From Bacteroidota bacterium (lineage in GTDB: Bacteria > Bacteroidota > Bacteroidia > UKL13-3): a DNA stretch of 49,344 nt. The notes below the pieces were generated by a model that had not been told where the DNA came from, did not search any database, and saw only the letters and a list, made by a program, of their open reading frames with translations. Position 1 is the stretch's first letter; every line of letters starts with the position of its first letter. The position numbers were made by a program, and so were the translations under genes. Location of the stretch: positions 1 through 49,344 of the forward strand of contig JAAFJM010000022.1 of assembly GCA_013298895.1 (NCBI GenBank), given 5' to 3'. Shown here piece by piece: positions 14,002-32,014 of the stretch.

Positions 14002-17000
14002 TTACTGCTTAACAAACTTTCTAGTTAAGCTATAACCATTATTATCCGTTACCTTTATTAAGTAAATTCCACTTGTTAAATCATCAACAGCTATTGTGTT
14101 ATTGGTTAATACTGCATTTTTAACCAAAGAACCTGACAATGCAAATATTTGAATATCAATTATCTCTACGTTTTTTTCAATACTTAAAGTTTTAGCAACA
14201 GGATTAGGATAAATAGTAAATATAAATGGATTTAAGGTTTCTAAACCTACATTTTGAATTACCAATGTATTGCTAGTTGCTTCGCAATTGGTAGCATCTT
14301 TTACTTTTACAATATAATCGCCATTGGCAACCGCAGTATGATTTGCATTAATAGCTCCTGCAATTATTACATTATTTAAATACCATTGGTATTTGTTAAA
14401 GCCAGCCGTAGCAGTTAAGGTATTTTGATTGTTATTTATACTAACAGTTAATGGTGCATTTACGGTTAAGTTTAAAGTTATTATTGAATCGCATCCTACA
14501 GCGTTACTTGTTGTATCAATGTAAGTTCCTGATTGAGTTAAAGTATTACCTTTAAAAGTAAATGTTTCGCCATTACAAATGGTTTTATTAAAGTTAAAAA
14601 CCGATTTTGCCTTAACCGAAACGGCTGCAATAGTTGAATTTACTGTTCCGCAGCTTGATGTAACTTCACAAATATAGTTACCAGCATCGCTGTTTGATAA
14701 ACTATTAAAGTATAGCGTATCATTATTTGAATTAGCGACAGCAGTCCCGTTTTTAAACCAAGTATAATTATTGTTATTGCCAGAGGCAACCAAACTTAAA
14801 TAAGAAACTGTGCCTTGGCATGAATTAACTGCACTTGGCTGAGTTAAAATATTTATACTATTAACTATGCTTAATTTAACTACAGATGAATTTTGGCTAC
14901 CGCAAGTTCCTGAAATTGAAACTGTATAATTACCAGAATCGGCAGCATTAACTAAAGTTTTGCTAAAAGTACTGCTATTTGCTCCAGCAATATTATTGCC
15001 ATTTAGCTTCCATTGGTATTTTAAACTATCGCCTGCTGCTGTCACACTAAAGTTAAAACCTTGGCTTGTGCATACCGTTTGTGAAACTGGCTGTGAAGTA
15101 ATTTGGGTAGAATTACTTATTGATAAAGTTACTGTATTAGAAATAACATTTCCACACGTATAATTCATAATTACCCTATAGTTAGCTGCATCGGCAGTAG
15201 TAACATTGGTTAATAACAAAGAATCATTATTACTATTTGGAATACTTACCCCATTTTTTTGCCAAACATAAGTTGCATTTTGTCCGTTTGTTTTTATTAC
15301 AAAAAGTGCATTTGCATTGGGACATATATTTAAATTAGTGGGCTGACTTGTAATTTGAAGTGCATCTATAAATTTCACCAAAGCAACATTTGACAATATA
15401 CTAGAACAACCATTTGAAACCATCACTGTAAATGAATCATTATTGACTACATTAGCAATATTTACACCATATATTGAGTTAAAAGCATTTGGTATATTTA
15501 TTCCATTTTTTTTCCATTGATATGTTAAATTTGAACCAGTGGCAGTTACTTGAAATGAGATAAATTGATTTTCTTGAAGTGGACAAATGTTTTGATTGTT
15601 AGGATGCGAGGTAATAGCTAAATTACTCTGAATAATACTTAAATTAATATTGGTAGAATATACACCTGCACAAGCTGTAGACAATCCAATTAAACATGAA
15701 TAGCTTCCAGTATCAGTGGCCTGTACATTATTAACGGTATATGTAGCAGCATTTGCTCCTTGAATTGGGCTACCATTTTTTAGCCATTGGTAGGTTACAT
15801 TTGACCCTGCGGTTACATTAACTGAAGCTGAAGCAGTGCTTCCTAAACATACAGCTCCAAAACCCGAAATGCTATTGAATTCAGCCATTTGGAATAAAGC
15901 ACTTACCTGTGTAGCTGTTAAAACAGAACTGTAAATACGTATTTCATCAAATGTTCCTTTAGCGCCATTGGTATTATAAATAGGAGCTGTATTTCCAAAA
16001 CGATTGATTTGGGTATTACTTGCACCACTTCCCATAACAGGTGGGGCAACAATAGTAGTTGGAATGGTAATATTATTTCCATCAAGATAAATCTTAGTTG
16101 TAGTTCCTGCTTTGGTTACCACAAAATGATGCCAGCCATTGGTAACGGTAACTCCTAAAGATTGAAAACCAGAACCACCAACTTGGTAACCCAAAATACC
16201 AGAACCATTTATAAATAACATATCGCCATAGTTTGCGCTATTACTGCCAATAATAGCTTCACCTGAAGAATTAGCAACACGTTTATACCATAATGAAACG
16301 GAAACATTATCGGTGGTTACAGGACTTGCCAAAACCAATGCATTATTTGTGGCTGTCAGCATAACGGCTTTGTTGGTGATATTTGCTCTATCGGTTGTAT
16401 ATGCAAAACTGGTATTTGTTGGCGTAAAAGTATTAGTACCAACAGTTGGAGTCAAGTTATTGTCAAACTTCCAATAGCTAACTAAATTAGTTGTAGCAAA
16501 ATTAGTCGTAATGGTAAATGTAGCAGCGCCACTAACAAGGACATTGTTTGAACAACCAGTAATTTCGCAAGTGTAATTGGCTACATCGCTGCTTTGTACC
16601 GAATTGATAAACAAAGTATCGTTATTAGAATTTGGAATATTTACATTGTTCTTTTTCCATTGATATGATGCCGCATTTTGAGCACCCACAAAAAAATAAA
16701 CACTGCTACCCAAACAAACCAAACTATTTGAAACTGTGGTATTAGTTGTAATAGTTGCTGCTGCTGCTGTTAATGTTGCTGCATTTGAATTAATTATAAC
16801 ACTGTTACAACCTGTAACTTCACAAGTATAGCTTGTAAAATCAGAAGTGGTAATATTTGTTAAAATTAATGTATCGTTATTTGAATTTGGAATAACCACC
16901 CCATTTTTTTTCCAAACATAACTTTGTCCTCCTGCTACATTAATAGTAAACATGGCTGTTTCTCCAACACATGCAGTTTGATTCAATGGTTGGTTTACTA

Positions 17001-19710
17001 TAGTACTATTTAAAATACCAGTCAAATTTAGATTATAATAATCAACCGAATTGCAAAAATTATCAGTAATGGTATTACGTAAACTCATATCGGTTGAAGG
17101 CATGGAGTTAATGGTTAAAGCATTGGTTTTAACGCCAGAATAACTTACCCCATCAGCCAAAGCCGTGAAAGTACCCTTTGATGGTTGATTATACCATTGA
17201 TAACTTAAACCACTATTACCAACTATAACTTGCACTGTGGTTGAAACACCAGCGCAAATAGGCACCGCACCCGAACTGCTAGCCGCAGGTAATTGCCCAT
17301 AAATTTTTATATCGTTGTATAGTTGAAGTACATTACCTGCTTTTAAGGTTGAAGTAATTCTAACATCATCTATTAATCCTTCAAAAAACTGGTTATTTCC
17401 AGTAGTATTTACGTTTTGCAAAGTTGTGTTTAAATAACCATTTCCAATTTTAAAAATATTAGATGTACCTATTTGCAATGCTGCTGAGGTCATACTTCCC
17501 ACTTCTACTCCATCAAGGTAAATAATTTGTTTACCCAAAGCTGCACTATATGTCCAAGCTGCATGATGCCAATTGGTATCCATAACAATACCTGAAGAAT
17601 AAATAGGACCGCCACTTCCAGGATAAACATAACCTGATAAACGACCTGTTGAATCCAAGTATAAAATTGGATTCCATGAACCAGGACTTGCTATTTGAAA
17701 ACCAATCAAGCTCATGGCTTTTTTATTTAAATTAGCTCTTTTAAACCAAACCGATACACCATTATTGTTGCCTGAAATCATACTACCAGTAACTTCAATA
17801 ACGGATGATGTACCATTGAAAACGGCCGCTTTGTTATTTACACCATATCTATCTTTTCCATAAGTAATTGCGGTTGCAACACCATTTTGAGTAGTTGCAA
17901 GTTCATTTAAAACATTGCCATCTAATGGATAACTAAAGTTTGTGGTATAACCAGTTAATGTAGTTAAAGTAATTTTCTTAGACCATTTTTCACCACAACT
18001 ATTTGAAACTTTGCATTGATAAATACCCGCTGTAGTATTATTAATATTATTGAAGGTATCGGCTACCAACAACACGCCATTTCTATACCATTGGTATTTT
18101 AAAGGCATGGTTAACGATGTAGCAACTGCAGTTACATTTATTTTACAGCTTTCAATATTATCAGCACTATTTATGTTTAAGTTAATAATACATGGTTCAC
18201 CAACATATCTAGCTAATACTGTATTGGTAGCAGTGGCATTTAATAAAGGCAAATTAGGACTCAATTTTGTGCTATCTATATTATGCGTGCTAACATAAGT
18301 TCCAGCAACATAAACTGAGGTTGAATCAGTTGACACAATTCCTGTAAAACCATCACTGCTGTTAGCTGTATTTTGAAAAACACCCGCATACTCTAAATTT
18401 AAATCAGTGTTATATTTTGCAAAGTACGAATCGAAAGTAGTAGCAACACGAATATAAGTTGAAGTAGGATTTCTATCAAAATCAAAAGTTCCATTGGCAG
18501 CACCAGAAAAATAATAACCATTCTTTTTATCAATATAGAAACCATTTACATACATGTTTGGATAACCATCAATGCTATCAATAACCATTCTAGGCTGCTT
18601 GTTTCCTGCAATTAAAGTACCATTTGTTGCATTATAATGAGCTAAATACACACTATACAAACCAGTAGGTAAACGTTTTGAAATAAAACTATAAACACCT
18701 AGTGGATGAGGATCTAAATCAACATTGGTAGCCCAATTAGATTGATAAGCTACAGCTAATTCGTTATTACTGTTAAATGCTAAACGCATATTTGAATTAG
18801 TAGTTCCCACTGCAAGTGGACAAGTCCATAATACATTAAAGTTTGTTGCATTATAAGTTACTATACATTGAGGACCAGTTTCGTTAAAAGCAGTACTATT
18901 GCCTTGGTTAAAGTTTGTTGAACCATTTAACTCTACTGCCCAATACAAGGTATCATTACGCATTTTCATATCCCATGAATTACCAATTAAGCCGCCACCT
19001 ATAAATCTGTGGTTCAGGTAAGTTAAGTTTGCGGTAAGTCTAACCAAATAGTCAGCAGTTCCGCTTGAAGAACTATAGGTAGTTGGTGCTTGAAAACCTG
19101 TTGCAGGGTCTAAATCAATGCTACGTAAAATAGAACCGGTTACACCAAAACGACCACGAACAACCACATTTTCATTTCTATCAAATACGCAACTGAGCAT
19201 ATCGTTAGCTACCGAACCTCCGTTATTTCCATCGTTTGGCAAACTGTAAGAATTTAACAAAGTTCCATTGTTATTAATAGTTGCCATATATCCCCCACCT
19301 GAACCCGCAAATAAAGTACTGCTGGTATAACCTCCAACCAAAACTACTTTTCCTCCTGCTGATACATCAAAAAAATTACAAGTTCCTGCCGAAATAGAAG
19401 TAACCCAAACCAATTCTTTATTAGGAGTGTATTTAGCAATATAAATTCCTATTGGGGTGGTTGAAGTTGTTGCACTTGGATCAAAATCGGCATTGCCACC
19501 CGTTTGACCAACCATGTAAAGATTGCCTAAACTATCGGTTTTTACACCTTTGTTTAAAGCATTAATAAGGCCAAAACTCCATGCATGTTCTGGTGTTTTT
19601 GATTGCGCTATTAAACCATTAAAGTTAAAAATAGCATAAAGTATAAAGGCAACTTTTATGGCTTCATACTTTATTTTTAGTTTGAAATTTGTTCTGTTTA
19701 TATTGTTCAT
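14002..19710 (-). CDS. Giant Ig-like/LamG surface protein with T9SS sorting domain
   Basis: This 1902-aa protein starts at the ATG at 19710; the in-frame upstream TTG is less likely. It has a long N-terminus with a Sec signal ending LIAQ. Order of parts: an SBBP-like beta-propeller region (about 35-500, with GNLYMVGQTGG and KTPEHAW repeats); an Ig-like domain; a LamG/concanavalin-like domain (about 590-800); three Ig-like domains; a second LamG (about 1070-1275); then five more Ig-like domains with the typical YxWKKNG...NNDTL...YxC pattern. An ICNGETFTFKGNTL repeat, a further Ig-like unit and a T9SS type-A sorting domain (last 70 residues, from IYPNP to KFVKQ) complete it. It is probably exported by T9SS and displayed on the cell surface as an adhesin. 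Confidence 0.9.
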   Translation of the reverse strand: MNNINRTNFKLKIKYEAIKVAFILYAIFNFNGLIAQSKTPEHAWSFGLINALNKGVKTDSLGNLYMVGQTGGNADFDPSATTSTTPIGIYIAKYTPNKELVWVTSISAGTCNFFDVSAGGKVVLVGGYTSSTLFAGSGGGYMATINNNGTLLNSYSLPNDGNNGGSVANDMLSCVFDRNENVVVRGRFGVTGSILRSIDLDPATGFQAPTTYSSSSGTADYLVRLTANLTYLNHRFIGGGLIGNSWDMKMRNDTLYWAVELNGSTNFNQGNSTAFNETGPQCIVTYNATNFNVLWTCPLAVGTTNSNMRLAFNSNNELAVAYQSNWATNVDLDPHPLGVYSFISKRLPTGLYSVYLAHYNATNGTLIAGNKQPRMVIDSIDGYPNMYVNGFYIDKKNGYYFSGAANGTFDFDRNPTSTYIRVATTFDSYFAKYNTDLNLEYAGVFQNTANSSDGFTGIVSTDSTSVYVAGTYVSTHNIDSTKLSPNLPLLNATATNTVLARYVGEPCIINLNINSADNIESCKINVTAVATSLTMPLKYQWYRNGVLLVADTFNNINNTTAGIYQCKVSNSCGEKWSKKITLTTLTGYTTNFSYPLDGNVLNELATTQNGVATAITYGKDRYGVNNKAAVFNGTSSVIEVTGSMISGNNNGVSVWFKRANLNKKAMSLIGFQIASPGSWNPILYLDSTGRLSGYVYPGSGGPIYSSGIVMDTNWHHAAWTYSAALGKQIIYLDGVEVGSMTSAALQIGTSNIFKIGNGYLNTTLQNVNTTGNNQFFEGLIDDVRITSTLKAGNVLQLYNDIKIYGQLPAASSSGAVPICAGVSTTVQVIVGNSGLSYQWYNQPSKGTFTALADGVSYSGVKTNALTINSMPSTDMSLRNTITDNFCNSVDYYNLNLTGILNSTIVNQPLNQTACVGETAMFTINVAGGQSYVWKKNGVVIPNSNNDTLILTNITTSDFTSYTCEVTGCNSVIINSNAATLTAAAATITTNTTVSNSLVCLGSSVYFFVGAQNAASYQWKKNNVNIPNSNNDTLFINSVQSSDVANYTCEITGCSNNVLVSGAATFTITTNFATTNLVSYWKFDNNLTPTVGTNTFTPTNTSFAYTTDRANITNKAVMLTATNNALVLASPVTTDNVSVSLWYKRVANSSGEAIIGSNSANYGDMLFINGSGILGYQVGGSGFQSLGVTVTNGWHHFVVTKAGTTTKIYLDGNNITIPTTIVAPPVMGSGASNTQINRFGNTAPIYNTNGAKGTFDEIRIYSSVLTATQVSALFQMAEFNSISGFGAVCLGSTASASVNVTAGSNVTYQWLKNGSPIQGANAATYTVNNVQATDTGSYSCLIGLSTACAGVYSTNINLSIIQSNLAITSHPNNQNICPLQENQFISFQVTATGSNLTYQWKKNGINIPNAFNSIYGVNIANVVNNDSFTVMVSNGCSSILSNVALVKFIDALQITSQPTNLNICPNANALFVIKTNGQNATYVWQKNGVSIPNSNNDSLLLTNVTTADAANYRVIMNYTCGNVISNTVTLSISNSTQITSQPVSQTVCTSQGFNFSVTAAGDSLKYQWKLNGNNIAGANSSTFSKTLVNAADSGNYTVSISGTCGSQNSSVVKLSIVNSINILTQPSAVNSCQGTVSYLSLVASGNNNNYTWFKNGTAVANSNNDTLYFNSLSNSDAGNYICEVTSSCGTVNSTIAAVSVKAKSVFNFNKTICNGETFTFKGNTLTQSGTYIDTTSNAVGCDSIITLNLTVNAPLTVSINNNQNTLTATAGFNKYQWYLNNVIIAGAINANHTAVANGDYIVKVKDATNCEATSNTLVIQNVGLETLNPFIFTIYPNPVAKTLSIEKNVEIIDIQIFALSGSLVKNAVLTNNTIAVDDLTSGIYLIKVTDNNGYSLTRKFVKQ

Positions 19711-19898
19711 AATAATTGTATTACTGCACAAATATTTATGGTTAGCTTTTAAGCACTTCCAACTATTTTAGTAGTTTATACTAATGCCTTTTTTGATTTG
19801 ACAAAACCTTATTTGAAAGTTTTACAAATAGTACCTACATTAATAAACATTACATAACATCTTTATTTATAAACTTATACAATAGTTATAAAAATAAA

Positions 19899-30085: not shown

Positions 30086-32014
30086 ATGAAAGTGGTAATA
30101 ATTGGTAGTGGTATTGCTGGTTTAGCATTAGGAACTATATTAAGTCAAAATGGATATACCATCTCCATAAATGAGAGAGATAGTGAGCAGATTAGAAATG
30201 GTCATGCCTTTTTAATGCATCCTGATGCAATGGATGTATTGAATATCATTTCAAACTACCACCCACAATTCGAAATACCTGGTCAGGTTATTGATAAAAT
30301 TGTATTGAAACGTCCTGATGATAGCATCATCCAATCTACTGATTTAGAATCTTGGATCTGTATGAAGAGGGTGGATATTATAAAATACTTAAGTTCCTTT
30401 TTAAAGGAAAACGAACTTCATTACAATAGAAATTTTTCGCATTTTATTTATGAAAATAATAAAGCCGTAGCTGTACAATTTTTAAATGGAGACATTGAAT
30501 ACGGAGATATTTTTATAGGTGCGGATGGCGCAAAATCAAATGTAAGAAAAGCACTTTTTGGAGAAGTAACTTTCACTCCAGTAGAAGTTAAAGAAATTGT
30601 TGGAGTTATTAATAATCCTTCTTTAGTAGCTAAACTACCAAGTACATTTACAAAATATATGAGTGCTGATAAAGGCTTAGCTGTTGGGCTTATACCTTGT
30701 TCGGATACCGAAATGGTTTGGTTCATGCAGTATGATGTAAGACTTCAAACACAAATAGAATTTTCGCCAGAATGCTTAAAAGCACTAAGTTTTGATTTAT
30801 TACAAAACTTTCCAGAAGAAGTACAAGAAGTGCTTCAATCTAATAATTTTACCAATAATTTTGTATGGTATTCAACCGACTTTGATTTGTTGCCAACATT
30901 TCATAAAGGCAATATAGCGTTGATTGGAGATGCGGCTCATGTGGCATTACCTTTTACAAGTGCAGGTACTACCAATGCCTTAATTGATGCTCATAAAATG
31001 GCAGAATTACTTTTAGAAAACCCTAATTTTGATTTTGTATGCAATATGTTTTACAATGACAGAGCAAAACAGTTAAAGGAACATATCAATTTAGGTAGGG
31101 AAATAAAAAATAATTTTCTTAATGCATCAAAAGGTAAAATTAAATTACCTCTCATAAAACAGTTAAAGGAAACAGATAAAATAATTGAACCTAAAATAGA
31201 AATTCTTTATTTTACTGACCCTATCTGCTCCACTTGTTGGTTAGTACAACCTCAATTAAGAAAACTTTCATTACTGTATGGTAAATATTTTGAAATAAAA
31301 TACCACATGGGTGGATTGCTTCCCAATTGGGATGTTTTAAAAAACAAAAAGGGTAAAATTACACAACCAAGTGAAGCTGCAGAACATTGGCAAGAAATAT
31401 CAGAATTACACGAAATGCCAATTTCACCAGATGTATGGTTAAACTCGCCTTTAGCCTCTTCTTTTCCTCCTTCGATAGCTATTAAAGCGGCACAAATGCA
31501 AAACAAAATTAAAGCTTTTCATTACCACAGGAGAATCAAAGAACTATTATTTGTAGAAAGTAAGAACATTACAGATATTGAACTACTTTTTAATACCGCC
31601 ATGGAGGTGGGACTTGATGTAGAAAAACTTAAGAACGATATCAATAAAAGCGCAATTGTTAAATTTGAGGAGGATTTACAATATGCTGCACAATTAAATA
31701 TTAAAGTACTTCCAACATTTATTCTTTCGAACGAATTCAATGAAAAAATAATACTCAATGGTTACCAAGAATATGATATTATGGAAAAAGCCATCTTGGA
31801 TTTATACCCACTGGCTCAAAAAGATATAACTATTAGGAAACCTTTGGAGCTTTTTCAAATATACCTGAGTATGACAACTCACGAGTTTTCGTACTTAATG
31901 GATATAGATAAAATGGAGGCAGAAAATATTTTGAAAAATTTAGCACATTCAGGATTAGTAAACAGAAAAAAGAACAATACTGGCACCATTTGGAAACTAA
32001 ATTACAGTAACTAA
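30086..32014 (+). CDS. FAD-dependent monooxygenase - DsbA/FrnE-like - winged-helix-like fusion protein
   Basis: This 642-aa cytoplasmic protein has three parts in one uninterrupted frame. Residues 1-345 form an aromatic-hydroxylase-type FAD domain: GxGxxG at G7-G12, GADG at 145-148 and the second FAD motif GDAAH at 281-285. Residues 368-575 are a DsbA/FrnE/SpxH-like thioredoxin (Thioredoxin_5): DPICSTCW with C381 and C384, HMGGLLPNWD, AAEHWQEISE, SFPPSIAIKAAQMQ and the cis-Pro543 in VLPTF. Residues 585-642 look like a short winged helix (FSYLMDIDKMEAENILKNLA). The last two parts occur together in stand-alone DsbA-family proteins; joining them to a flavin monooxygenase is unusual. The aminotransferase gene ends 2 bp upstream. 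Confidence 0.88.
   Translation: MKVVIIGSGIAGLALGTILSQNGYTISINERDSEQIRNGHAFLMHPDAMDVLNIISNYHPQFEIPGQVIDKIVLKRPDDSIIQSTDLESWICMKRVDIIKYLSSFLKENELHYNRNFSHFIYENNKAVAVQFLNGDIEYGDIFIGADGAKSNVRKALFGEVTFTPVEVKEIVGVINNPSLVAKLPSTFTKYMSADKGLAVGLIPCSDTEMVWFMQYDVRLQTQIEFSPECLKALSFDLLQNFPEEVQEVLQSNNFTNNFVWYSTDFDLLPTFHKGNIALIGDAAHVALPFTSAGTTNALIDAHKMAELLLENPNFDFVCNMFYNDRAKQLKEHINLGREIKNNFLNASKGKIKLPLIKQLKETDKIIEPKIEILYFTDPICSTCWLVQPQLRKLSLLYGKYFEIKYHMGGLLPNWDVLKNKKGKITQPSEAAEHWQEISELHEMPISPDVWLNSPLASSFPPSIAIKAAQMQNKIKAFHYHRRIKELLFVESKNITDIELLFNTAMEVGLDVEKLKNDINKSAIVKFEEDLQYAAQLNIKVLPTFILSNEFNEKIILNGYQEYDIMEKAILDLYPLAQKDITIRKPLELFQIYLSMTTHEFSYLMDIDKMEAENILKNLAHSGLVNRKKNNTGTIWKLNYSN

Follow-up and report, generated by a model that had tools for sequence, protein, structure and literature searches.

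The locus studied here raises the question of why a flavin hydroxylase and a thiol protein of the DsbA family should be encoded as one polypeptide, and what the thiol part could contribute to the enzyme. The window, meaning the whole 49,344-nucleotide stretch of Bacteroidota DNA that was analysed, carries on its plus strand a single uninterrupted ORF of 642 aa (30086-32014) with an ATG start and no internal stops, as the first-pass annotation had read it. The parts of this protein and the gene preceding it are listed in Table 1.

Table 1. Features of the fusion locus, in window coordinates.
Feature	Residues	Coordinates	Strand	Basis or remark
PLP enzyme, fold-type-I, 388 aa		28917..30083	+	Pfam Aminotran_1_2; upstream of the fusion, ends 2 bp before it
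FAD monooxygenase domain, class A (FMO)	1-346	30086..31123	+	FAD motifs, Pfam, fold
Linker	347-370	31124..31195	+	AlphaFold2 confidence low in second half
DsbA-like thioredoxin domain (Thioredoxin_5)	371-573	31196..31804	+	Pfam, phmmer, AlphaFold2, Foldseek
CxxC motif C381-S-T-C384	381-384	31226..31237	+	translation, alignment
Pro543, thioredoxin-fold cis-Pro position	543	31712..31714	+	'cis' by homology
Winged-helix-like C-terminal segment	586-638	31841..31999	+	homologous to YjbH C-terminal domain

Domain architecture and the coupled PLP-enzyme gene

Pfam matches to FAD_binding_3 (E 3.3e-19, best stretch 143-310) and to Thioredoxin_5 (E 4.5e-44, residues 375-567), the latter accompanied by DSBA (E 1.8e-11), together with the 20 full-length copies described below, bear out the original proposal that a flavin hydroxylase is truly fused to a DsbA-family thiol protein. 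The chain contains GSGIAG (7-12), GADG (145-148) and GDAAH (281-285), which we take to represent the GxGxxG, DG and GD FAD motifs of class A flavoprotein monooxygenases, and translation and alignment placed these motifs, C381/C384 and Pro543 exactly where they had first been assigned. Of the 20 full-length forward fusions, 18 have a CxxC pair (17 CSTC and 1 CSSC) and the other two have CSAS, whereas PT occupies the Pro543 position in every copy.

The SpxH/YjbH-type part of the window protein spans residues 371-638. Residues 370-637 aligned in a single stretch to Geobacillus YjbH (PDB 6ghb_B; phmmer E 1.1e-39), and the SpxH domain alone gave E 2.8e-40 against the same chain, again as one alignment stretch through residue 637. 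The winged-helix segment searched alone yielded weak MarR/TrmB scores below the cut-off. The first-pass annotation had counted this tail as a third module, a reading that we rejected, as one YjbH chain (6ghb/6gho) covers both the thioredoxin domain and the winged helix; according to PMC7253607, this YjbH consists of a thioredoxin domain, interrupted by a helical insertion, and a C-terminal winged helix. The fusion thus has the DsbA-like thioredoxin domain, the winged helix and the CxxC in common with SpxH/YjbH of Geobacillus kaustophilus (6ghb/6gho) over a continuous alignment, whereas it differs in carrying the FMO and in showing 27–29% identity (Foldseek). On these alignments and the predicted model, the window protein is an FMO followed by one complete SpxH/YjbH-type protein and joined to it by a short linker.

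The AlphaFold2 model of the fusion, computed from a 38-row alignment, had a mean pLDDT of 88.1 and a pTM of 0.57, with the domain orientation lacking a confident prediction; owing to this low pTM, no contact between the FMO and SpxH domains is predicted. A helix at 315-346 closes the FMO domain in the model, residues 358-366 form the sole stretch of at least three residues with pLDDT below 50, and the linker between FMO and SpxH is probably flexible. Foldseek aligned the model to 6gho_B over 276 columns with a TM score of 0.90 by target length, and matched its N-terminal half to Tet(51), NicC and HpxO (E 4e-24 to 3e-25). The window FMO shares the FAD motifs and the PHBH-type fold with these three class A flavoprotein monooxygenases, but is 17–21% identical to them (Foldseek) and adds the SpxH extension. 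It did not reach the cut-off of any listed NCBIfam model; assignment as a tetracycline destructase was rejected (75.7 bits against a cut-off of 550) and the gene is not filed as a resistance gene. As a separate observation, Cys92 of an FMO motif W-x-C-x-K-R (window 30359-30361), near Arg95, is conserved in all but one of the 20 full-length forward fusions.

A homologue of the PLP-enzyme gene occupied the same upstream position in each of the 21 forward-fusion loci examined (the 20 full-length copies and one contig-end copy), and its end was separated from the fusion start by a 2-bp gap or overlapped it by 1 or 4 bp (4 bp in G018, for example; the G624 contig ends within the gene, whose 5' part is missing there). 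The PLP gene and the fusion therefore probably form the same operon. The window PLP enzyme scored highest with PatB C-S lyase (223.5 bits), nearly as high with GntC (222.2 bits, cut-off 415) and about equally with aminotransferase models, and among its solved relatives aromatic and aspartate aminotransferases outscored C-S lyases. PatB membership was rejected, as the score falls short of the NCBIfam cut-off of 340. The enzyme shares the fold-type-I PLP architecture with PatB-type C-S lyases and class I-II aminotransferases but lies below the listed specific-family cut-offs, and since the FMO and the PLP enzyme both stay under the curated NCBIfam cut-offs, no substrate is supported for the pair.

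Distribution and history of the join

Genome samples of 58 relatives, 395 phylum members, 64 family members and 395 class members, which overlap, were searched for the fusion. Twenty full-length forward fusions were identified in 20 genomes belonging to seven family groups and none contained an internal stop; a C-terminal fragment at a contig edge (G004) and two contig-cut copies (G461) were excluded from this count, one partial G461 copy being kept in the motif and gene-spacing tables. Eight other aligned fusion copies were 44–97% identical to the window copy, and its nearest named records were metagenome-assembled Bacteroidetes. At E 1e-30, the family sample gave matches in 16 of 64 genomes, of which 13 had the fusion (including G461 with its two cut copies), three had stand-alone SpxH and none had both, and the phylum sample gave 24 of 395 (two fusions, 20 with SpxH alone and two with FMO alone). 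In the class sample the FMO matched in 14 of 395 genomes at E 1e-50; 11 of these were forward fusions, one was reversed and two, whose FMOs fall inside the fused clade, lacked the SpxH half, so that homologues are not always encoded as two genes with a stop near residue 350, the outcome that would have spoken against a fusion. No place covering 80% of the fusion was found in any of 114 matching plasmid records, and a Pontibacter plasmid match consisted of two separate genes.

Ten pairs of fusion copies were used to calculate dN/dS for the two domains separately. In the four pairs with dS below 1 in both domains, three of which come from the trio G000/G006/G009, values were low, ranging from 0.031 to 0.110 for SpxH and from 0.085 to 0.136 for FMO; pairs with dS above 1 or undefined were left out of this range, as were G544/G760 (0.30 and 0.53), whose dS was only 0.028 and 0.006. 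Linker dN exceeded that of both domains in nine of the ten pairs, the tenth (G544/G760) being too alike to judge. The join between FMO and SpxH is real and maintained.

Several genomes carry natural variants of this arrangement. In G629 the order is reversed, SpxH preceding FMO in one 657-aa frame with the PLP gene downstream. A profile built from the G264, G319 and G629 FMOs matched five of 395 genomes in the phylum sample, to which G629 does not belong, and none was both new and fused; no further reversed fusion was found in 10 genomes of the G629 family and order. G264 and G319 encode FMO followed by the PLP gene, unfused, and no SpxH was found in either genome at E 1e-15, demonstrating that the pair can exist without SpxH. 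G557 has an FMO frame that terminates within the linker region, then a decayed SpxH remnant (L095 4000-4440), with an intact, convergent stand-alone SpxH gene adjoining the locus, and G720 has an FMO reaching only as far as the linker, its SpxH being on another contig. G544 and G760 have the full fusion with the CSAS active site, adjoined by a cytochrome c-type gene and a stand-alone SpxH of the kind seen in G557. Four fusion genomes also contain a stand-alone SpxH gene, which lies beside the fusion in G544 and G760, at a distance of about 15 kb within the same contig in G620 and on another contig in G629.

Two side observations concern these loci. A fragment of the PLP gene is also present at the contig start in G557 (L095), and a tryptophanase-cluster gene precedes the FMO-PLP pair in G264 (L061 5978-9917) and G319 (L062 8236-12174), the first of which was scanned.

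G544 and G760 belong to different families and have in common a 4,876-bp block of 93% identity (L102 4267-9133; L103 5569-10435) that holds the cytochrome c-type gene, the stand-alone SpxH, the FMO-SpxH fusion and most of the PLP gene, with no match apart from short repeats in the rest of the 10–11 kb stretches compared. The nearly identical FMO-SpxH and stand-alone SpxH genes, the far more diverged PLP gene (dS 1.5) and the unlike flanks together suggest that part of this locus was recently transferred.

The FMO tree placed G557 (100/100) and G720 (a 92/94 branch, not starred) inside the forward-fused clade, with G264/G319 and the long branch of G629 outside it. G557 and G720 are therefore probable losses of the fused SpxH half, less certainly so for G720. 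Forward-fused SpxH domains were set apart from 21 stand-alone rows by a 98/99 branch; when G629 was added, its SpxH, on a very long branch, grouped with them (99/99), and a clade of the forward copies alone was not rejected (p-AU 0.256). Two independent fusions, one forward and one reverse, are thus no more than a possible reading of these trees.

Stand-alone relatives of the SpxH domain

Stand-alone Bacteroidota SpxH-type proteins have the same layout as the fused SpxH part and were 38–45% identical to the window protein in 19 of 21 rows (31–32% in the other two). Nearer stand-alone rows carry CSSCWG[IA]EP, in comparison to mostly CSTCW[LVIM][VI]QP in forward fusions. Thirty distinct TDPxCxxCW sequences without a long N-terminal part were collected, corresponding to 29 stand-alone relatives and the G629 fusion. 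A lipobox-like N-terminus was recognised in 17 of the 29 relatives by a simple rule, which is not a trained predictor and misses similar-looking sequences such as L012 and L045, and a CX6C motif (e.g. PLLCDPxTGxC) precedes the domain in 26 of 29. Such lipobox or CX6C N-termini upstream of TDPxCxxCW were seen among L010–L014, L041–L055, L079, L091 and L102.

The fused copies begin directly with the flavin Rossmann strand and have no recognisable signal peptide, in agreement with what had been noted for the window copy, and this start is the one basis on which we place the fusion in the cytoplasm. Judged from these N-termini, the fused SpxH is probably a cytoplasmic branch of an often exported group.

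One gene cluster recurred beside stand-alone SpxH in 11 of 25 loci, its two scanned members being HxlR proteins. A divergent helix-turn-helix gene lies beside a Spirosoma copy, and the DsbA-family relative on the Pontibacter plasmid comes after a Mn-catalase gene. DoxX-like and SDR neighbours were recognised by eye in a few stand-alone loci. Taken together, the HxlR, helix-turn-helix, DoxX-like, SDR and Mn-catalase neighbours give a hint that the context of the stand-alone relatives is oxidative or electrophile stress.

Possible roles of the tethered thiol domain

The reading we favour, to which we give slightly less than an even chance as a whole, is that of a cytoplasmic hydroxylase tethered to a CxxC thiol oxidoreductase beside a coupled PLP aminotransferase/lyase gene. 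The PLP enzyme and the flavin domain would act one after the other on a single metabolite, aromatic or derived from an amino acid, the flavin domain hydroxylating it to products that may be oxidised and thiol-reactive, and the SpxH domain would provide CxxC-dependent thiol-disulfide chemistry at the hydroxylase site, for example by keeping enzyme or partner thiols reduced during hydroxylation. Historically, an SpxH from the often exported-looking Bacteroidota group would have fused once to an FMO to give rise to the forward family, which may later have lost or damaged its SpxH half in a few genomes. Genomes with a lost or damaged SpxH still keep an open FMO frame, an indication that hydroxylation and the thiol part can be separated, and FMO-PLP pairs without SpxH speak against an obligatory role of the thiol domain.

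It is possible, albeit doubtful in our estimation, that the SpxH domain acts as a covalent thiol-redox partner, reducing or trapping quinone- or sulfenyl-type products, or partner disulfides, from the flavin site; such a partnership would have arisen in two domain orders and could pass to a separate SpxH gene.

Alternatively, SpxH may act on the metabolite itself, the PLP enzyme being a C-S lyase, the flavin domain oxidising an intermediate that bears sulfur or a quinone and the CxxC handling the thiol or disulfide of this intermediate. The top NCBIfam score of the PLP enzyme and the solved C-S lyases among its relatives are consistent with this, but the score lies under the family cut-off, GntC and aminotransferase models score alike, solved aromatic and aspartate aminotransferases rank above the lyases and the winged helix stays unexplained, all of which makes this alternative unlikely.

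Control of turnover through Spx and ClpXP, raised by the first-pass annotation, was weakened by the present results and is retained here as a distinctly unlikely alternative, in which the SpxH half would be a protease adaptor that brings ClpXP to the fused enzyme, to the PLP partner or to an Spx-like regulator and so controls its amount, with the cysteines sensing redox state or aiding binding. The best solved relative is indeed a YjbH–Spx complex, in which YjbH was matched along its length, winged helix included, and a Bacteroidota stand-alone relative carries the NCBI name 'ClpXP adapter SpxH family protein'. The two PF03960 (ArsC-family) matches in the fusion's own genome (98.6% complete), however, have CDTM and CGKS at the Spx motif position and no CxxC there, a CxxC being what we take as the mark of Spx, although either may still have an Spx-like role; the second ArsC-family ORF has other CxxC pairs in an N-terminal extension. 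In addition, ClpXP would not act where the lipoprotein-like stand-alone relatives are expected to lie. PMC7253607, a paper of 2020, presents SpxH/YjbH as an adaptor for ClpXP in Firmicutes for which thioredoxin activity was yet to be shown, and its CXXC as variable even within the family. According to the same paper, the CXXC is required for function and SpxA1 binding in Listeria, which suits an adaptor, but Spx degradation in B. subtilis and S. aureus does not depend on the cysteines, which would leave the CxxC conservation unexplained. Given this species-dependent need for cysteines, conservation of the CxxC in most fusions does not decide between adaptor and oxidoreductase.

The fusion could also be a passive accident that aids folding or co-expression with no joint function, as the SpxH half is absent or damaged in four genomes that still have an open FMO frame. 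We consider this improbable, since SpxH dN/dS was not above that of FMO in the four usable pairs, a fusion of opposite order exists and the fusion is held by seven family groups. An assembly or annotation artefact, to which metagenome-assembled sources might point, is already refuted by the 20 full-length copies with the same junction region in separate assemblies, and the junction is accordingly no assembly join.

Both halves belong to known families; what is new to us is their combination, the coupled gene and the two domain orders, and among the matches listed no earlier description of an FMO-SpxH fusion was seen in the open-access literature, in line with the first impression that the layout had not been described. 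A fusion with natural copies lacking the CxxC or the entire SpxH provides a ready comparison for the chemical role of the SpxH fold, and this comparison set includes a genome where no CxxC protein at the Spx position was found. The label 'ClpXP adapter' may mislead for lipoprotein-like Bacteroidota relatives.

The surroundings of the fusion were surveyed in 25 clustered stretches, which gave no substrate clue and no widely recurring neighbour besides the PLP gene. A promoter scan was at chance level (19 found, 19.4 expected) and gave no terminators. In four loci, from G012, G450, G454 and G720 (L029, L096, L104 and L105, of which L096 is that of G720), members of a histidine-kinase cluster and of a single receiver-domain cluster lie on the same strand directly upstream of the PLP gene; the scanned members, those of L096, proved to be a histidine kinase with a PAS domain and a receiver-domain protein. 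Two loci have an amino-acid permease cluster nearby, one member of which was scanned. Elsewhere in the window, the minus strand carries at 14002-19731 a 1909-aa ORF with immunoglobulin-like and laminin-G-like domains and a Por secretion tail.
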